Positions 5,146 through 13,945 of a stretch of 44,501 nt of DNA are shown piece after piece. The stretch is from an uncultured beta proteobacterium (GTDB lineage: Bacteria; Pseudomonadota; Gammaproteobacteria; Burkholderiales; Burkholderiaceae_C): positions 1 to 44,501 of the forward strand of contig CAIVLG010000179.1 of NCBI GenBank assembly GCA_903906695.1, in the 5' to 3' direction. Position 1 is the first letter of the stretch; each line of letters opens with the position of its first letter. Under the pieces are notes generated by a model. That model did no database searches. It saw only the letters and a list, made by a program, of their open reading frames with translations, and was not told the origin of the DNA. Both the position numbers and the translations under genes were made by a program.

Positions 5146-6075
5146 TCAAGCGCGATCGGCCACCCGCTCACCGAGCAGACCCGAAGGTCGCAGTGTCAGC
5201 ACCGCGATCAGAACGATGAAGGCAAAAATATCCGAATAGTGACTGCCGAGCACACCACCCGTCAGCGCGCCAATGTAGCCCGCGCCCAGGGATTCGATCA
5301 GCCCCAGCAGGATGCCGCCAACCACGGCACCGGCCAAGTTGCCAATACCACCGAAAACTGCCGCCGTAAATGCTTTGAGACCCGGCAAAAAACCCATGCT
5401 GTGCTGTACCGTGCCGTAGTTGGCGGCCCACATGACACCGGCGATCGCAGCCAGCACCGCACCGATGACGAAGGTGGCGGAAATCACCACGTCGGGCTTC
5501 ACGCCCATCAAGGCGGCAACGCGTGGATTCTCGGCCGTGGCACGCATGGCACGTCCCAGCTTGGTGTAGTTCACCAGCCACATCAGGACTGCCAGTGACA
5601 CCGCCGTCATACCGAGAATCAGCACCTGCGTCGGTGTAATTACGGCGCCGCCAATGTCAAACGGCACGCTCGGGAGCAAAGTGGGATAAGGTTTGTAGTT
5701 CGGTTTCCAGATGATCATGGCCAGCGTCTGCAGCAGCAAGGACATGCCGATGGCGGTGATCAGGGGCGCCAGCTTGGGGCTGTTTCGCAGCGGTCGGTAA
5801 GCTACTTTTTCAATCACAAAATTGAGCGTTGCCGCCACAATGCAGGCAATCACGGTGGCAATCAGCAGCACCAGCCAACCCGCTGTGTTCGGCATGGCCT
5901 CTTTCATCAAGCCGATGATGGACCAGCTGGTCAACGCTCCCACCATCAGCACCTCACCGTGCGCAAAGTTGATCAAGCCGATGATGCCGTAGACCATGGT
6001 GTAACCCAGCGCTACCAGGGCATACATGCTGCCCAACACCAGACCATTGATGATCTGCTGTATGAAGGTATCCAT
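5146..6075 (-). CDS. livH: Branched-chain amino acid ABC transporter permease LivH
   Basis: This 309-residue inner-membrane permease begins with the family's typical N-terminus (QQIINGLVLGSMYALVALGY) and has about eight hydrophobic segments. The ATPase-docking loop is visible at LGRAMRATAENPRVAALMGV. It is the first liv gene in the window; GGAG lies six bases before its ATG. The operon promoter should lie in 6076-6374, but no convincing -35/-10 pair was found on the minus strand. Confidence 0.95.
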   Translation of the reverse strand: MDTFIQQIINGLVLGSMYALVALGYTMVYGIIGLINFAHGEVLMVGALTSWSIIGLMKEAMPNTAGWLVLLIATVIACIVAATLNFVIEKVAYRPLRNSPKLAPLITAIGMSLLLQTLAMIIWKPNYKPYPTLLPSVPFDIGGAVITPTQVLILGMTAVSLAVLMWLVNYTKLGRAMRATAENPRVAALMGVKPDVVISATFVIGAVLAAIAGVMWAANYGTVQHSMGFLPGLKAFTAAVFGGIGNLAGAVVGGILLGLIESLGAGYIGALTGGVLGSHYSDIFAFIVLIAVLTLRPSGLLGERVADRA

Positions 6076-6374
6076 AAACTTCTCCGATTATTGGCCGTTG
6101 CATGGAAATTAGCTGCGTGCCGACAAGCGGCGTCACCGCTTGGTCTCTGCAATTATTCCAAGCAATAAACCTGCCAGCAATGCGATCAAAGCGACAGAAC
6201 CAGCGGCTTGGTGATCGGGATTGTAGCGAAGGGGTACTCTCGCCTCGCCCTGCATTCCCATGGGTTTACCCTCGGATTTGGAACTTCTCCGTGAGGTTCA
6301 TCAGGGAAATTATTGTGTTTCGATCGACCCATACAAAGACTATATTTGGTCATTGATGAACCGAGGAAAGCACC
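6076..6374. other. Intergenic region between livH and the toxin-antitoxin pair
   Basis: These 299 bases separate divergent transcription units, so they should hold promoters for livH (leftward) and the antitoxin gene (rightward). AT-rich stretches are present (TTGTGT at 6313 and TATATT at 6341), but they are 22 bases apart, too far for a standard sigma-70 promoter. No gene, strong hairpin or repeat was seen. Type II antitoxins usually bind their own promoter, so an operator is expected near 6320-6370. Confidence 0.4.
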
Positions 6375-6650
6375 ATGCGCTATAGCACCCAGATCCAACC
6401 CATCAGCTACCTGAAGGCCAACGCGGCAAAGGTGTTGCTTCAACTCGCCGAGCAGCGTGAGCCCATGATCATCACGCAAAACGGCGAGGCGAAAGCCGTG
6501 ATTCAGGATGTCGACTCGTTTGAGAAAACGCAGGAAACCCTGGCGCTGCTAAAGATTATTGCCTTGGGCCAGCAGGAGATTGATAACGGCAAGGTCAAGA
6601 CGGAGACTCACGTTGTGGCACGATTGCGGGCAAAGCTGGCAGCGGTTTGA
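6375..6650 (+). CDS. Phd/YefM-family antitoxin
   Basis: The 91-residue protein has the Phd/YefM pattern. An N-terminal DNA-binding half contains ISYLKANAAKVLLQLAE followed by the conserved hydrophobic/polar signature EPMIITQNGEAKAVIQD. A flexible C-terminal half, rich in charged residues, would wrap the toxin. It neutralises the adjacent ParE/RelE-type toxin and probably represses the operon. The stop codon overlaps the toxin ATG (TGATG), which is typical translational coupling. Confidence 0.9.
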   Translation: MRYSTQIQPISYLKANAAKVLLQLAEQREPMIITQNGEAKAVIQDVDSFEKTQETLALLKIIALGQQEIDNGKVKTETHVVARLRAKLAAV

Positions 6651-6985
6651 TGCCAGCGCAACGGGATGAGGTGCTGCTTACCGAAGGCGCGGAGCAGGAC
6701 CTGGAGGAACTCTGCGACTACATCGCAGAGTTTGACTCTATTGCAAACGCCGACCTTGTGCTGGATCGCCCGCTCGAAGTGGCAGAAAGTCTGGAACAGT
6801 TTCCCGAGCGCGGCGCCTTCCCCAAGGAATTGCTCGAACTGGGTTTTCGGGATTACAGACAGACCTCATTCAAGCCCTACCGCATTATTTACCGGGTGCT
6901 GGACCTCAAGGTCTATATTCATTTGATTGTGGACGGGCGCCGCAACACGCAGTCATTGCTGTTACGCCGCGTGCTGGGTAAGTAA
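6650..6985 (+). CDS. RelE/ParE-superfamily toxin
   Basis: A 111-residue protein of the RelE/ParE fold. It opens with a helix bearing the family pattern EQDLEELCDYIAEFDS and has the central segment LEQFPERGAFPKEL. It ends in the beta-strand region YRIIYRVLDLKVYIHLIVDGRR. The start at 6650 overlaps the antitoxin stop; a TTG at 6647 would add one residue. Whether it poisons gyrase (ParE) or cleaves mRNA (RelE) cannot be told from the sequence. The pair lies alone between the liv and ygfK transcription units. Confidence 0.88.
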   Translation: MPAQRDEVLLTEGAEQDLEELCDYIAEFDSIANADLVLDRPLEVAESLEQFPERGAFPKELLELGFRDYRQTSFKPYRIIYRVLDLKVYIHLIVDGRRNTQSLLLRRVLGK

Positions 6986-7012
6986 CCGGCATCCTGCTGT
7001 TAATATCTTCGC

Positions 7013-8830
7013 ATGAGCGAGCTCGCCCCCTACCCCATCGCTGGCTTGGCGCGGCGCATGCTGCGCGAGTTCGACACACGCCAGTCGATCTTTGACTTGC
7101 CCAAGCGCAAGTTCGTGCTTGGCGATCCGCGCATTGACCTGTCGGTGCGTTCGCATGGTCACAGCGCTGCCACACCGTTCGGCCCGGCAGCCGGGCCCAA
7201 CACTCAGTTGGCGCAGAACATCGTGCTGTGCTGGCTGGCTGGCGGCCGTGTCATTGAACTTAAGACAGTCCAGATTCTGGACCGCCTCACGCTGCCGCGA
7301 CCGTGCATCGACATGCAAACCGTTGGTTACAACGTCGAGTGGTCACAGGAACTGACGCTGCAACAGTCGCTCGAAGAATATGTGAAGGCGGCGATGCTGA
7401 TCCGCATTCTCGAAGCCAGCGGTCGCCTTGCGCTGGCACCGGGTTTCGGCCGCACCCTATTCGACATGAGCGTCGGCTACGACCTGGCGGGCATCCGCAG
7501 CGAACGGGTGCAGGCATTCATTCGCGGCATGATGGACGCCACGGCCGTGGTTGAGCGGCTGCGGCGTGAGCTGCCGGCCGAGCTGGGGCCGCTGCGCGAC
7601 CTCGATTTCGCCACACGGATTTCAGACACGCTGACGCTGAGCACCTTTCATGGCTGTCCACCCGGCGAGATCGAGGCGATGGTCGGGCATCTGATGCGCG
7701 AGCATGGCCTGTCCTGCGTCGTCAAACTGAACCCGACCCTGCTTGGCGCCACCGAGGCACGCAGATTGCTGCACGACGCGCTCGGCTACAACGAGCTGCG
7801 CATTCCCGACGACGCGTTTGCCAAGGACGCCAAATGGGAACAGGCCACCGCGTTCATGGACCGCCTGGACGGCGTCGCCCAATCGCTCGGACTGCATCTG
7901 GGTGTGAAATTTTCAAACACCTTGATCGTGGAGAACCACAAGAGCTTTTTCCCGGCGAGCGAGAAATTCATGTACCTGTCGGGGCCACCACTGCACGTGC
8001 TGGCGATGCATCTGGTGCAGCGCTGGCGAAGTGCCATGGGCGATCGCTTTCCGGTATCGTTCTCTGCCGGTATTGAGCGCGCCAACTTCCCGGATGCGGT
8101 CGCTCTCGGGCTGGTGCCGGTCACGGTCTGCACCGACCTGCTGCAAGCCGGCGGCTACTGGCGCGGCTTCGGCTACTTCGAGGAACTGGCACTGCGTATG
8201 GATGCGGTGGGCGCGACCACGATCGACGAATTCATCCAACGCGCTTACGGTGAGACCGACTCCAAGGACCTCAGCGCGGCCAAGCTGCGAAACACCGAGA
8301 TTTACCTGGACCGCATCAGCGCTGACCCCCGTTACCATGCCGACAATCACCGCAAAGGACCGCGCAAGATCGACCGGCGCCTTCAGTTCTTTGATTGCGT
8401 CACCTGCAACAAATGCATCCCGGTCTGCCCCAATGACGCCAACTTCAGTATCCGCGTGCCATCCACTCCGAAGGTCCCGCTGAAGATGACGCGCCAGATC
8501 GTCAACTTTGCCGACTTCTGCAACGATTGTGGCAACTGCGACGTCTTCTGTCTGGAGGATGGTGGCCCTTACCTGCTCAAGCCACGCCTGTTCGTGAACC
8601 GCGAGCGCTGGCTGAACGATGCACCACGCGATGCTGTGCTGATCGAGCCCGACGCAATCAGTGGGCGCTTCGACGGCGTGGTGCTGCGGGTGGCGAGCGG
8701 CGAGGAGCCCGGCGACGAGCCGAGAGCCCTGGCACTGTGCAGCTTGCGCGATGCGCTACTGGATCCGCTCGACACCAACCACGTGAACGAGTTTCTGCAC
8801 TGCACCACATCCCCGTCACAGGCTAGCTGA
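7013..8830 (+). CDS. ygfK: YgfK-like protein without the FAD/NAD(P)H domain (DHOD-like barrel plus ferredoxin)
   Basis: The 605-residue protein matches the two ends of E. coli YgfK, which is about 1030 residues. Residues 1-430 align with its dihydroorotate-dehydrogenase-like barrel (for example PFGPAAGPNTQLAQNIV, RVIELKTVQILDRL, TLSTFHGCPPGEIEAM, KLNPTLLG). Residues 455-520 match its terminal ferredoxin region, with eight Cys in two groups (462, 465, 468, 472 and 503, 506, 509, 513), enough for two 4Fe-4S clusters. The YgfK middle, a dihydropyrimidine-dehydrogenase-like Fe-S and FAD/NAD(P)H unit, is absent, and the frame runs through the junction without a stop. The result resembles PreA in layout. 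YgfK is annotated as a putative selenate reductase/oxidoreductase of unproven function. Its stop abuts that of convergent ssnA. Confidence 0.87.
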   Translation: MSELAPYPIAGLARRMLREFDTRQSIFDLPKRKFVLGDPRIDLSVRSHGHSAATPFGPAAGPNTQLAQNIVLCWLAGGRVIELKTVQILDRLTLPRPCIDMQTVGYNVEWSQELTLQQSLEEYVKAAMLIRILEASGRLALAPGFGRTLFDMSVGYDLAGIRSERVQAFIRGMMDATAVVERLRRELPAELGPLRDLDFATRISDTLTLSTFHGCPPGEIEAMVGHLMREHGLSCVVKLNPTLLGATEARRLLHDALGYNELRIPDDAFAKDAKWEQATAFMDRLDGVAQSLGLHLGVKFSNTLIVENHKSFFPASEKFMYLSGPPLHVLAMHLVQRWRSAMGDRFPVSFSAGIERANFPDAVALGLVPVTVCTDLLQAGGYWRGFGYFEELALRMDAVGATTIDEFIQRAYGETDSKDLSAAKLRNTEIYLDRISADPRYHADNHRKGPRKIDRRLQFFDCVTCNKCIPVCPNDANFSIRVPSTPKVPLKMTRQIVNFADFCNDCGNCDVFCLEDGGPYLLKPRLFVNRERWLNDAPRDAVLIEPDAISGRFDGVVLRVASGEEPGDEPRALALCSLRDALLDPLDTNHVNEFLHCTTSPSQAS

Positions 8831-9826
8831 TCAGAACTTCTCCATGCGCAACCAGAGCTGCTGTGCCTGCGCGGCGGCCTCTGCCCGGATCGCATCCATG
8901 TCGATGCTGGGTGCCGCGCCAACGACCGGTAGCGCTCCCTCAAAACGCTCGGCCAGCAAGGCATGGCCGGCGTGCAGCCGCCGCGCTGCCACCACCGGAT
9001 CGTCGCCATGGCGCTTAGCGTCTTCCATTAGGGTCATGCGTTCAGCATTCAAGTCGGACGCATAACCGTCGGTGCCAAGCGCCACGTGGGCGCTGACGCG
9101 CAGCGCGGCGGGATAGCCGACGCGGTTGCCACGGTTGGAGCGTGGATTCTGCACCAGCCAGCAACCGAGCTGCTCGGCGCGCAGAACCTGCGCTTCACTC
9201 AGGTGCACGCCGTGCGCCAGAATGGAGCCCGGCGGCAGCGCGCCGAGCTGGGCCAGCCGCTCAAGAGGACCGGCCCAGCCCCGTCTTACCGAGTCGTCTA
9301 CATCGGCAAGATCCTCGGCAACATGCACGTGCAGAACCGTTCTCAACTCGCGACACAAAGCCGCCGCTTCGCGCACGGTTTCGTCAGATACCGTAAACGA
9401 TGCGTGCAAACCGACCACGCCGCGCACCAGGGGGCGTGTGTTGCTCTGGATGAAACGACGACACTCGGCGAGACCGCGCTGGGCCTCTTCGCGCCCACCA
9501 TTGCGCTCGCTGGCACCATAGCAGAGCACGGCCGGCATTCCCATGGTCTGGCAAACGTCGGCCAGGATATCGAGCGAGCCTTCGATCAGTTGTGGCGACT
9601 CGTGATGGTCGATCAACCCAACCGTGCCGAGCCGCAGCGCCTCGGCCACGTACCACTGCGCCGAAGCGCGCAACGATGCGGCATCGAGCGCACGATCCAG
9701 ACGCCACCATACGCGCTCCAGAATCTGGACAAAGTTCGCGGGCGGCTCGACTGGCGCGGGCATGCCAAACGGCACCAGCCCCGAATAAAGGTGCGTGTGC
9801 GCGTTGACAAAATCTTGGTCGCTCAT
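8831..9826 (-). CDS. ssnA: SsnA-like amidohydrolase, short form lacking the beta-sandwich domain
   Basis: This metal-dependent hydrolase of the amidohydrolase superfamily is 331 residues against about 442 for E. coli SsnA. The metal-binding and catalytic motifs are present: [10 protein letters not shown] (HxH), [17 protein letters not shown] and GTDGYASD. The protein starts right at the HxH strand, so the N-terminal beta-strands are missing. The block equivalent to SsnA residues about 365-415 is also absent, while the extreme tail ([11 protein letters not shown]) is kept. The N- and C-terminal strands form one composite beta-sandwich in this superfamily, so a whole structural unit has gone. 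The ATG overlaps the hydroxylase stop by four bases, indicating coupling. Substrate is unknown; a purine or other N-heterocycle is suggested by context. Confidence 0.88.
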
Positions 9827-12447
9827 TGAGTCGTCAATGGCATACCGACACTCATCGCTCGCGCAGCCGGCGAGTCCTTCATCGGCAGCGTTCTGCGACG
9901 AATTCCGTCGAACGCCTCCAGCGCGCCAGCCACTGCGGCTGCTGTCGGCACCAGACCAATTTCGCCCACGCCCTTGGCGCCCATAGGCCCTTCGGGCTCA
10001 GGCTCCTCAATCAGAATCACATCGACTGTCGGCATGTCGCGCGCGCGCAGAACACCCAATTCCTTGAGCTTGAAAGTCACCGGCATGCCGTTCTCGCAGC
10101 GCAGTTCCTCGGTCAGCGCGTAACCCAGTCCCATGTGGATGGCACCTTCGATCTGGCCGGTGCAGAGCGCCGGGTTCACGACCCGTCCCGCATCATGCGC
10201 AGCAACCACCCGTTCGACGCGTCCGTTGGCATCCAAAATGACGAGCTGCGTTGCGTAACCGAAGGTCGTATGGGTTTTGATCTTGGCCACCGGTGCACCA
10301 AGCGCGGTGGTGTCGCCAATCAGGATGTCACCCGCATAGACCCGACCCACCAGCGCCGCCAGCGCGTGCCCGGCGTCCAGGTCAGCTCTGAGTTTCTCGG
10401 CCGCCATCAGCACGGCGCGCCCGCTCAGCAGCGTGCCCCGCGACCCCGTCGTCTGGCCGCACTGCAAGTCAAAGGTCGAGTCCACTTTCGGTACAAAGCA
10501 GGACGCCGGCAGTCCCGTCGCCTCGACTGCAAACTGAACCAGCACGGTCAGAAGGCCCTGCCCCATCTCGGTGAAGCCGTTGTAGAGCGAAACGGTCCCG
10601 TCCGGTTCGACGACCAACCTGGCTTTGCCCGATTCCTGGACGCCGTTGCCGATGCCGCTGTTCTTGACGCCACAGGCAATGCCCACTGCGCGCCCTTCAC
10701 GCAGCGCAGCGTCATAGAGCGGCTTTACTGCTTGCAGCGTCTTGCGGATACCGACCGATTTCTCCAACACCTGCCCGGTGGCGAAGGTATCGCCAACGCT
10801 CAGGGCATTGCGCCAGCGGATCTCCCAGCGGTCCAGCCCCGCCTTCCGGGCCAGCAGGTCCAGACACCCCTCCATCGCGAAGTTCGACTGATTGGCGCCG
10901 AAGCCCCGCATCGCGCCGCATGGCGGGTTGTTGGTGTAGACGGCGAGCGACTCGACGTCCACGTTGGGCACACGGTAGGGGCCGCAGGCGTGGCCCGCCG
11001 CCCGCTCAAGCACCTTGGCGCCGACTGAAGCGTACGCGCCGGAGTCACCGACCATGCGCGCCCTGACGGCGGTAATGCGGCCTTCTTCATCGCAGCCCAC
11101 GGTGTAATCCAGCGACAGCGGGTGACGCTTGGGGTGGATTCGAATCGACTCTTCGCGGCTCAGTGTCAACTTCACCGGGGCGCCAGTCAGCCGCGCCAGC
11201 AGCGCGGTTTGGGCCTGAACCGACATGTCCTCCTTGCCACCAAAGGCGCCGCCATTGGGCACCAGTTCGACGAATATCTTTTCCTCGCCGAGGCCCAGAA
11301 AACTCGCCAATTGGCGGCGATCCTCGAAGATGCCCTGGCCCTGCGAGCGCAGGTGCAAGCCGCCATCGGACAGCGGCTCGGCCAGTGCGCTCTCGGGCTC
11401 AAGGAAAAGATGCTCGATGCGCTGCGTCACCCAGGTGCCGCTCACCACATGCGCGCTGGCTGCAAGCGCCGCTGCGACATCGCCACGGCGCACGATGGCG
11501 TGCTCCAGCAGATTCTCGTGCTGCGGGTTGACGCGCGGTGCACCGGTTGCCAATGCGCGCTGCGGTTCGAGCACCGGCTCCAGCACGTCGTAGGTCACAT
11601 CAACCAGCTTGGCGGCTTCGCGCGCGGTGTGGCGGTCGACGGCCGCAACCGCTGCCAGCACATCGCCAACGCAACGCACTTCCTCCCCCACTGCGACAAA
11701 GCCGGGCCAGTCGTTGTGCAGCAAACCGTACCAGCGTTTGCCCGGAACATCGGCAGCGGTCGCCACCGCCCGCACGCCCGGCAGAGCACGGGCGCGCGTG
11801 GTATCGATGTGCAGGACACGGGCACGCGGATGCGGGGACAGTGTCAGAGCACCGTGCAGCATGCCCGGCACGTTGAGGTCGGCAATAAAGGGTCGCTCTC
11901 CAAGCACGCTCTGTGCGCTTCCAATGCGCATCAATGACTGACCGACCCGTCCATCAGTGCAGGCCGGCGGGATGGTAGCGCCGCGCTTGGCCGCCGCCAA
12001 CAATTCAACGGCATCAATGATCTTGACGTAGCCGGTGCAGCGACACAGGTGCAAGTCGAGCGCGCGCGCAATCGCCTGGCGTGTCGGTGCCGGATCGCGG
12101 TCCGTGATCGCCTTGGCGCGCAACGCAATGCCCGGGATGCAGAAACCGCATTGCAGACCGGCCGTGGCGCCAAAGCAGTCAGCGAGCTGCTGGCGCTCCT
12201 TGGCCGGCAGGCCGTCAAGTGTCACGATGGTCTTGCCATTGGCGACCCGGGCCGGCATGGCGCAAGTGGTCTTGGGCAGACCATCGACCAGCGCGACGCA
12301 GCAACCGCACTGACCCTGCGGGCTGCAGCCGTCCTTGAGCGACGTGACTGAGCAACGCTCGCGCAGCGTCTCCAGCAGTCTTTCGTCGGAACGCGGTTCA
12401 ACCCGCCAAGGGGTTCCGTTCAGCACAAATTCGATTACGGCAGCCAT
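9823..12447 (-). CDS. XdhD-type molybdenum hydroxylase with fused 2Fe-2S domain (selenium-dependent xanthine dehydrogenase-like)
   Basis: An 874-residue fusion. Residues 1-150 are a two-cluster iron-sulfur domain: plant-ferredoxin type Cys41, Cys47, Cys50 and Cys62 (with five rather than four residues between the first two), then the helical domain with CGFC and CRCTGY. Residues 170-874 are the molybdopterin domain of the xanthine dehydrogenase family, with [29 protein letters not shown] and the catalytic-Glu motif [10 protein letters not shown]. No FAD domain is present, and no CoxM/YgfM-type FAD gene lies in the locus. The adjoining ssnA and ygfK genes point to the E. coli XdhD / selenium-dependent hydroxylase group. 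Selenium dependence itself cannot be read from the sequence. Substrate is likely a purine or similar heterocycle. The start lies four bases after the pap stop. Confidence 0.9.
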
Positions 12448-12451
12448 TCGA

Positions 12452-13945
12452 TCAATCCTGTTTATTCTTCATGGCAGCTTCGATCTGACGGCACAGGGTT
12501 TTCAGTATCTTGATCCGCGCAAAGTTCTTGTCGTTGGCTTCCACCAATGTCCAGGGCGCTACTTCGGTACTGGTTCTGTCGACCATATCGCATACTGCTT
12601 GCTCATATTGAGCCCATTTGTCGCGGTTGCGCCAATCCTCTTCGGTAATTTTGAAACGCTTGAAGCCAGTGTTCTCGCGCTCTTTGAAGCGTCGGAACTG
12701 TTCGTCCTTGCTGATGGACAGCCAGAATTTGATCACGATGATATTGTGGCGCACCATTTGCGCTTCAAAATCATTGATTTCGCCGTAAGCCCGCATCCAG
12801 TCGGGCTCGGGGCAGAAGCCTTCCACTCTCTCAACCAGAACCCGGCCATACCAGGAACGGTCAAAGATCGTGACCCGACCACGTCGTGGGATGTGGCGCC
12901 AGAAACGCCACAAATAGGGCTGGGCGCGTTCTTCTTCGGTCGGCGCTGCCACTGCAATGATGGTGTAGTCACGCGCATCCAGCGCACCTGTGATGCGCCG
13001 AATGGCGCCTCCCTTGCCCGCCGCGTCGTTGCCTTCAAAGAGGGCAATGACGGTGATGTTCTTAAATGTCGGTCGGCGCAGCAACATCGCGAGCCTGCCC
13101 TGATATTTCTCCAGCTGAATGTCAAAAGTCTCATTGGCCAACTTCTGGCTGAGATCCAGTGTCTTGAGAATATCGAGTCGATCGATGGACGGCAGCGGAG
13201 GGTGCGCTTTGATGATGGTGGACCTCTCGCCTGCCTGCTCCAGCCGTTTGCGTATCGCGTCGAGAATGATCCGTCCGACGGTCAAGCTGCGGTAATGCGG
13301 ATCGTAGCCTTCGACAATCGACCAAGGTGCCTCGGCGGTACTGGTGTGCCGAATAACGCTTTCGTTGATCACGCGAAATCTATCGTACAGTTTGTGACGA
13401 TCCCAGTCGCGTTCGGTGACTCGCCAACGCGTCTTGGGATCTTTTTCCAGTAGCTTGAGGCGTTTCTTCTGCCTCTTCTGAGACAGATGCATCCAGAATT
13501 TGATCAGTAGCGCACCCTCATCGCTGAGCATCTTCTCCAGGCGTCGTGCACGCTCCAGACTCTGATCAAGTTCGGCCACTTTGGTACGACCCGCGACTCG
13601 ATTTAGGATCGGCCATGTATACCAGGAACCGAGGAAGATGCCGATGATTCCTTTGGGTGGCAGCGCACGCCAGAAACGCCACATCATCGGGCGGTCGAGT
13701 TCCTCGTCCGACGGATCGCCCATGCCATGGGTCTGAAGATAGCGCGGATCCATCCATTCGTTGAGCAGGTTGACGGTTTCTCCACGCCCTGCGCCATCGA
13801 CCCCGCCAATCAAGATAATGACCGGGAACTTGGCGAGTTTGGCAAGTTCCATCTGGGCATCGAGCAGTGCTTCGCGCAGCCCGGGCACTTCTGCATCGTA
13901 AGTGGCCTTGTCTATCTGGTGTCCAAGTTCCGCGGATTCAAACAT
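12452..13945 (-). CDS. pap: Polyphosphate:AMP phosphotransferase (class II PPK2)
   Basis: This 497-residue protein is built of two tandem PPK2 P-loop domains. The N-terminal one has a P-loop GGVDGAGRGE (about residue 47) with Arg where the active domain has Lys. The C-terminal one has FEGNDAAGKGG (about 301), followed by the lid and Walker B region YLWRFWRHIPRRG and FDRSWYGRVLVERVEGF. In class II PPK2 enzymes such as Acinetobacter PAP, the second domain is the active one; it phosphorylates AMP to ADP using polyphosphate. The gene overlaps the end of rarA by eight bases and is followed after four bases by the hydroxylase, so rarA-pap-xdh-ssnA could be one transcript. Confidence 0.93.
   Translation of the reverse strand: MFESAELGHQIDKATYDAEVPGLREALLDAQMELAKLAKFPVIILIGGVDGAGRGETVNLLNEWMDPRYLQTHGMGDPSDEELDRPMMWRFWRALPPKGIIGIFLGSWYTWPILNRVAGRTKVAELDQSLERARRLEKMLSDEGALLIKFWMHLSQKRQKKRLKLLEKDPKTRWRVTERDWDRHKLYDRFRVINESVIRHTSTAEAPWSIVEGYDPHYRSLTVGRIILDAIRKRLEQAGERSTIIKAHPPLPSIDRLDILKTLDLSQKLANETFDIQLEKYQGRLAMLLRRPTFKNITVIALFEGNDAAGKGGAIRRITGALDARDYTIIAVAAPTEEERAQPYLWRFWRHIPRRGRVTIFDRSWYGRVLVERVEGFCPEPDWMRAYGEINDFEAQMVRHNIIVIKFWLSISKDEQFRRFKERENTGFKRFKITEEDWRNRDKWAQYEQAVCDMVDRTSTEVAPWTLVEANDKNFARIKILKTLCRQIEAAMKNKQD

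Follow-up and report, generated by a model that had tools for sequence, protein, structure and literature searches.

How would the enzymes of a reductive purine pathway receive electrons when the modules that take in NAD(P)H are absent? This question is raised by a locus in a 44,501-nucleotide contig of an uncultured beta proteobacterium (CAIVLG010000179.1, analysed at its full length and called the window below). According to the open-reading-frame list, the three genes at 7013-12447 encode a short relative of YgfK on the forward strand and, on the reverse strand, a relative of SsnA and a molybdenum hydroxylase. In the sections of Li et al. (2025, PMC12507026) on which we draw, XdhD-YgfM converts urate into yanthine, YgfK performs a reductive dearomatisation and SsnA opens the ring; the later steps are assigned to HyuA, YgeW or UacY, YgeY and YgeX. 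We favour, with a probability of roughly 0.6, the reading that the window set is the upstream half of this reductive urate pathway without its own intake of NAD(P)H, and that ferredoxin or another one-electron carrier feeds both of its reductases. This reading is built on gene architecture, a predicted fold, residue conservation, gene linkage and co-occurrence. The locus would probably represent a trimmed-down machinery for the oxygen-free breakdown of uric acid, in which the iron-sulfur parts are kept, the NADH-side module is absent and another electron source is used.

The catalytic half of YgfK without its NAD(P)H-side half

Alignment with E. coli YgfK (from NC_000913) revealed that residues 514-904 of the E. 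coli protein (~391 residues) are absent from the window protein, after its residue 464. The window protein scored 403.3 bits against TIGR03315, under the curated cut-off of 835.3, with the best stretch at 4-395. The eight Cys of its two CxxCxxCxxxC motifs (462, 465, 468, 472 and 503, 506, 509, 513) are invariant in 48 rows of the alignment, bearing out the preliminary description of the locus, which had assigned them to two 4Fe-4S clusters. We kept the best 80 of at least 562 stretches encoding relatives (loci L003-L082), and nothing is therefore stated on the rest; judging from equal lengths or mirrored coordinates, L003, L004 and L006 are apparently identical to contigs of genomes G011, G016 and G033 discussed below, and are not independent. 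Judged by length, all 77 relatives whose stop codon falls within the fetched stretch are short (597-718 residues), the other three being cut by contig ends; L053 starts at a contig edge. Because these 77 are equally short, the short YgfK is no assembly fault, a point on which the preliminary description had made its proposal depend. The chance that an assembly error or a decaying gene explains the locus is negligible, as the 77 relatives come from many phyla, the frame in the window is intact and the cofactor residues are invariant in the 48 rows.

In a tree of the flavin mononucleotide (FMN) domain made by a quick method (38 short proteins of the 80, the window protein and L162, seven long forms, and one of unknown form, L163, cut by a contig end), the short rows formed a single clade (SH-aLRT 100), corresponding to one change, a result that holds for this sample drawn from the best 80 and at a point where the tool warned of long branches meeting. 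From these sequences the short form looks old in the sample rather than a recent deletion. The flavin adenine dinucleotide (FAD)/NAD(P)H middle is absent, as originally described, but the wording that the protein "has lost" it goes beyond what is shown, the short form being one deep clade in the sample. The record titles of the clade name beta- and alphaproteobacteria, Gemmatimonadota, Acidobacteriota, Myxococcota, Planctomycetota, Elusimicrobiota and SAR324. The short form is a rare trait: the N-terminal half was matched at 1e-20 in 4 of 399 genomes of the family and 2 of 398 of the phylum, the window's own genome counted in each. A TIGR03315 search of 369 genomes of the class matched 296, but the matches listed are almost all GltD-like (profile ~390-970), and this search was used only for finding G226. 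A long and a short YgfK stand side by side in L077 (7040-12845, a Thermoanaerobaculia record).

The locus had first been described as flavin-free. We found instead that the remaining YgfK domain models as an FMN barrel of the dihydroorotate dehydrogenase (DHOD)/dihydropyrimidine dehydrogenase kind, and that what is missing is solely the FAD on the NAD(P)H side. All 50 fold matches listed for the short YgfK in the PDB (the best 50 of 361, E ≤0.001) are dihydroorotate or dihydropyrimidine dehydrogenases, which are FMN enzymes; the AlphaFold2 model has a pLDDT of 89.9. Comparison with PreA of the same genome by hhalign gave a probability of 95 and an E-value of 3.7e-8. In a MAFFT alignment K84, C215 and K238, all invariant in the 48 rows, face Lys-Thr, Cys and Lys-Leu-Thr-Pro residues of PreA, and we take them to be equivalents of FMN and catalytic residues. 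The short YgfK is predicted from the model to bind FMN. The catalytic half of YgfK is thus kept, and the NAD(P)H-side FAD half is absent.

The molybdenum hydroxylase and the compact SsnA

The window hydroxylase passes TIGR03311, the selenium-dependent xanthine dehydrogenase (XDH) family, with 905 bits against a cut-off of 830.45, whereas it scores 224 bits with TIGR03313, the family of E. coli XdhD, where the cut-off of 1101.9 is not reached. E. coli XdhD, chosen as the comparator in the preliminary description, was therefore unsuitable; it also has none of the eight 2Fe-2S Cys (0/8). These eight are present in the window hydroxylase, which keeps two 2Fe-2S clusters as had been proposed; one 2Fe-2S domain is without a Pfam match, yet its four Cys align. 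The Cys within residues 41-137 are presumably the 2Fe-2S ligands, and we assume that E406 corresponds to the Glu with which xanthine dehydrogenase binds purines. Among solved structures, the best full-length matches (11-858) are to the aldehyde oxidoreductases 1SIJ and 1DGJ, which we take to be FAD-less Desulfovibrio enzymes with 2Fe-2S and Mo. The genome contains selD (425 bits); the best score for YqeB (TIGR03309), a maturation marker of selenium-dependent XDH, was 19.8 bits in the genome, under the cut-off of 220.

No FAD_binding_5 gene adjoins the window hydroxylase, and the three in the genome belong to other molybdenum-hydroxylase loci (C241, C30, C81); the absence of ygfM from the locus and the four-base overlap between xdh and ssnA (ATGA) were both correctly described. 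Complete fused hydroxylases numbered 30 in the examined loci, 27 of them of the window type (≥830 bits), and a complete window-type hydroxylase was found in only 24 of the 80 loci. An adjacent FAD_binding_5 gene is lacking in 26 of the 27 and present in all three others (E. coli XdhD, C81 of the window's own genome, and L166). Five of the 27 lie too close to a contig or stretch end for a full judgement (L003, L016, L033, L055, L164); among the other 22, 21 are without an adjacent FAD gene. The exception is L069, where the adjacent FAD gene seems to close a separate set of three subunit genes. Whether ygfM/coxM is always absent near a short YgfK had been put as a question; the hydroxylases of L026 bear FAD subunits. 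All 27 window-type enzymes, and L166 as well, retain the eight 2Fe-2S Cys, Glu 406, the Arg found in xanthine enzymes and the last Glu. Because L166 has a FAD gene, these residues cannot separate the FAD-less from the FAD-bearing kind. In E. coli XdhD all eight Cys are missing, Gln replaces the Glu and Asn replaces the Arg. Its first Cys is at residue 190 (xdhD, L002 13317-16187), though XdhD works with a FAD subunit, a mirror image of the window hydroxylase.

Are the two absences of FAD tied to each other? A matched change, the joint loss of both FAD modules, had been suggested. As a rule it was ruled out by two loci that break the pairing. L164 (G884) combines a long YgfK (901 bits with TIGR03315, above the cut-off), a compact SsnA 75% identical to that of the window and a TIGR03311 hydroxylase (902 bits); no FAD gene was recognised in its 18 kb, which cover only 509 bases upstream of xdh. 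Its hydroxylase is 85% identical to that of L003, which is in turn 89% identical to that of the window. Conversely, L026 combines a short YgfK with the FAD-bearing hydroxylases mentioned above. The FAD states of YgfK and hydroxylase are therefore separable.

The SsnA relative scored 234.5 bits with TIGR03314, under the cut-off of 455.5. It is a variant of 331 residues with ~55-60 N-terminal residues missing and a shorter C-terminus, and starts ~10 residues ahead of HxH, as do those of L005, L006, L007, L011, L015, L017 and L162. Other SsnAs of this compact subgroup have longer open frames ahead of HxH with unsettled starts, and the frames of SAR324 and Phycisphaerales relatives span 419-457 residues. 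H10, H12, H166, H168, H205 and D253, which we assume to be the amidohydrolase metal-site residues, are invariant in 18 rows, and the protein is modelled with confidence as one barrel (pLDDT 93.1). The Pfam scan of the window proteins returned 4Fe-4S for YgfK, Amidohydro_1 for SsnA, and Ald_Xan_dh_C, MoCoBD_1, MoCoBD_2 and Fer2_2 for the hydroxylase.

Downstream genes and the source of electrons

The window set very probably belongs to the reductive purine pathway. At least one of nine downstream-type genes passed the threshold in 52 of the 80 short-YgfK loci, a count that, like those that follow, carries no background frequency or control. Absences mean little because many stretches are short. 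At the threshold the 80 loci gave PLPcysK in 30, AllC in 21, YgeW in 17, PLPthrS in 10, YgeY and YqeA in nine each, HyuA in six, carbon-nitrogen (CN) hydrolase in two, and E. coli-type YgeX and a PreT-like gene in one each; yqeC was found in none. By BLAST clustering, 19 loci had CN hydrolases and 21 had PLPthrS. L011 carries yqeA, hyuA, ygfK, ygeY, ygeW, two pyridoxal-phosphate (PLP) genes, ssnA and xdh within a single stretch. In the window's own genome, contig C285 encodes an AllC-like carbamoylase, a CN hydrolase and two PLP enzymes consecutively. Two neighbouring PLP enzymes, one cysteine-synthase-like and one threonine-synthase-like, occupy the place where YgeX would be expected in C285 (513-3315) and in L011, L025, L063 and L064. 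AllC/CN-hydrolase genes (21 loci at the threshold) and YgeW/YgeY/YqeA genes (19 loci) occur together only in L078, and neither in 41 loci (Fisher p 0.03, YgeW/YqeA arm); they are perhaps two alternative routes for removal of the ureido group. L019, L041, L055 and L077 have a two-chain xanthine-dehydrogenase-like pair (Fe-S/FAD chain and Mo chain) near the short YgfK, which would fit a conversion of xanthine to urate ahead of the reductive steps.

We compared 60 genomes, the window's own included and 36 of them from its genus. Matches to ygfK at E ≤0.001 were found in 14, with strong matches to a short YgfK in G000, G011, G016 and G033 and to a long YgfK (43% identical) in G001 and G021. The PLP gene of C285 had a match in 12 of the 60 at 1e-10, with at least 88% identity in G000, G001, G011, G016, G021 and G019. 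The six genomes with strong ygfK and the six with the strong PLP gene overlap in five, one having ygfK only, one the PLP gene only and 53 neither (Fisher p 6.5e-6, uncorrected for kinship and with the query genome counted). For AllC, PLPthrS and PLPcysK, the proteins of the window's genome share 77-89% identity with those of the long-type genomes. The upstream set differs: that of G021 consists of a long YgfK, whose gene is divided between two contig ends, a 452-residue SsnA, yqeC and a hydroxylase Mo chain with a FAD match. This comparison is the best evidence that the short and long upstream sets do the same job with different wiring. One genus with both wirings and the same downstream genes makes the question of the donor testable. 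The set might instead act on another purine or N-heterocycle, being merely derived from the urate pathway. The divergence of its proteins (403 of 835 bits with TIGR03315, 235 of 455 with TIGR03314) speaks for this, but we regard it as very unlikely, since downstream-type genes recur in 52 of the 80 loci and one genus combines a shared downstream module with either form.

By analogy with the reactions in Li et al. (2025), the hydroxylase (Mo and two 2Fe-2S clusters, no FAD) would reduce urate to yanthine (2,8-dioxopurine). The short YgfK would pass one-electron equivalents through its two 4Fe-4S clusters to FMN in the DHOD-like barrel and so reduce, that is dearomatise, yanthine; the compact SsnA would open the ring, and the remaining steps would come from the second locus on C285 (carbamoylase, CN hydrolase and two PLP enzymes). 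Both reductases would be fed probably by reduced ferredoxin or flavodoxin; that the donor is a one-electron carrier such as ferredoxin is what we infer. Because Li et al. (2025) describe the pathway as reductive urate degradation, the enzymes most likely take electrons up. The direction first proposed, from Mo through 2Fe-2S to an acceptor, is not supported, the steps being reductions in that study. Both NAD(P)H/FAD entry modules are absent, and iron-sulfur electron transfer involving an outside carrier is the likeliest replacement for them. In the part of Li et al. (2025, PMC12507026) used here, which gives the method only, the assay of the FAD-less UacX of Clostridioides difficile was set up with reduced methyl viologen.

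Several findings weigh against this reading. The fold matches of the short YgfK are partial (TM-scores by query length, 0.36-0.41). In G033 ygfK occurs but the PLP gene does not, and G019 (71% complete) shows the reverse. The window hydroxylase keeps the Glu/Arg pair of xanthine oxidisers that is missing in E. coli XdhD, and could for this reason run as a xanthine oxidiser. No clear hyuA orthologue was found in the window's own genome, where the best match is 40% identical and adjoins PreT-PreA, and AllC-like and hydantoinase genes are found in other pathways too. None of the 80 loci had a recognisable ferredoxin gene next to it, flavodoxins being outside the search, and the host genome has PreT and a GltD-like protein as possible electron suppliers. 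The pyruvate:ferredoxin oxidoreductase near the C285 module is missing from the neighbourhood in G011.

Two candidate sources of ferredoxin were rejected. A motif scan of the 80 loci for a dedicated ferredoxin gene beside ygfK or xdh gave four matches, all spurious by eye. Near the downstream module, C285:11605-16095 encodes PorC, a PorA-like protein and PorB together with a GltD-like protein of 540 residues; supply from this operon was not counted as evidence because the neighbourhood is not kept in G011.

NAD(P)H could still be the donor if a separate FAD/NAD(P)H protein, PreT on C111 or the GltD-like protein on C285, docked in trans on the short YgfK, as PreT does on PreA. The short YgfK is PreA-like in fold, PreT adjoins PreA in the genome, and ~9 kb separate the GltD-like protein from the AllC-like gene in the downstream module. 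We nevertheless consider this unlikely: PreT sits in a pyrimidine set (on C111, PreT-PreA with a hydantoinase and a carbamoylase), the single PreT-like match above the threshold in the 80 loci is the long YgfK of L077, and the GltD-like/Por neighbourhood is not conserved in G011. A second alternative dispenses with a carrier: oxidation of one purine at Mo would send electrons through 2Fe-2S to the 4Fe-4S clusters of the short YgfK, whose FMN would reduce the next purine in a redox-neutral loop, so that ring opening would cost neither NAD(P)H nor carrier. Neither protein has a FAD port, both have Fe-S clusters, their genes adjoin in many loci, and the hydroxylase retains the Glu/Arg pair found in xanthine oxidisers. 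Such a loop is improbable, however, as in L164 this type of hydroxylase occurs together with an NAD(P)H-type YgfK, C30 of the window's own genome has a conventional FAD-bearing two-chain xanthine-dehydrogenase-like pair, and the XdhD step of E. coli consumes electrons according to the portion of Li et al. (2025, PMC12507026) drawn on here.

Coordinates of the genes, domains and motifs are collected in Table 1. Around the three genes, a Phd/YefM-ParE toxin-antitoxin pair (Pfam scan) lies at 6375-6985, between livH and ygfK; its flanks, ~5927-6235 and ~6992-7200, align with L005, where they are only ~73 bases apart. A PPK2 gene at 12452-13945 (two matched stretches) ends 4 bases before the xdh start, and ABC-transporter genes take its position in L005 and L007.

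Table 1. Features of the ygfK-ssnA-xdh locus, with positions in the window.
Feature	Position	Strand
Short YgfK homologue, 605 residues; predicted FMN-type barrel and two 4Fe-4S motifs, without FAD/NAD(P)H module	7013..8830	+
YgfK residues 1-410, DHOD/PreA-like barrel; K84, C215, K238, G353 and C373 opposite PreA residues	7013..8242	+
YgfK residues 462-513, two CxxCxxCxxxC motifs	8396..8551	+
Compact SsnA-type amidohydrolase, 331 residues, no N-terminal domain ahead of HxH	8831..9826	-
ATGA overlap of 4 bases, xdh stop/ssnA start	9823..9826	-
Molybdenum hydroxylase, single chain of 874 residues, TIGR03311 type, no FAD partner gene adjoining	9823..12447	-
Hydroxylase residues 41-137, span of the eight 2Fe-2S Cys	12037..12327	-
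Hydroxylase E406 codon	11230..11232	-

Comparison with known systems

The window set shares with ygfK-ssnA-ygfM-xdhD of E. coli the N-terminal FMN-type domain of YgfK, the 4Fe-4S motifs, SsnA and a molybdenum hydroxylase, and genes of the hyuA/ygeW/ygeY/yqeA type as in E. coli occur in its relatives. The window set differs in several respects: its YgfK lacks the FAD/NAD(P)H module, ygfM is absent, the hydroxylase belongs to another family and has intact 2Fe-2S, SsnA is compact, and the downstream enzymes found in its own genome are other ones. The Desulfovibrio aldehyde oxidoreductases 1SIJ and 1DGJ are likewise single chains and match the hydroxylase end to end (11-858), but their substrate is an aldehyde and, to our knowledge, they are not linked to YgfK. 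PreA of the NAD-dependent dihydropyrimidine dehydrogenase is an FMN barrel with 4Fe-4S clusters that reduces a pyrimidine and is separate from its FAD subunit; it differs from the short YgfK in that its PreT partner adjoins it in the window's own genome, and the sequence similarity is low.

The entries IPR017700 and IPR017701 presumably correspond to the NCBIfam models TIGR03314 and TIGR03315, under whose curated cut-offs the SsnA and YgfK of the window score, a scoring that covers the window's own members. As the urate-pathway survey was defined, in the portion of Li et al. (2025, PMC12507026) at hand, by IPR017700 (SsnA) together with IPR017701 (YgfK), the short-YgfK branch may have escaped it. 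For Enterococcus faecalis, the part of Haft and Self (2008, PMC2276186) consulted lists EF_2570, EF_2581 and EF_2582 with no FAD-subunit locus; this set shares with the window an XDH covering the Fe-S subunit too, YgfK and SsnA, and differs in that YqeB and YqeC are listed and its YgfK is assumed to be long.

FAD-less hydroxylases of this pathway are already known. In the sections of Li et al. (2025, PMC12507026) used here, C. difficile has XdhD without YgfM and a UacX with FMN and no FAD domain, for which the authors suggested ferredoxin; C. difficile loci without FAD subunits were also noted in a 2024 paper (PMC11448449), as far as its consulted part goes. The two systems share two enzymes without a FAD partner and an FMN-only reductase. 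They differ in that UacX is a PF01180 (DHO_dh) protein, whereas the window protein is a YgfK relative with no PF01180 match in the Pfam scan (E up to 0.01), and C. difficile has UacY. The preliminary description knew of no account of such a form: an FAD-less hydroxylase and an FMN-only UacX are on record in C. difficile, but the titles and abstract openings of the open-licence literature searched gave no description of a YgfK without its FAD domain. Our best reading is that the window set represents a new, phylum-crossing variant of the pathway, which would be fed, as suggested for C. difficile, by ferredoxin or by another one-electron carrier.

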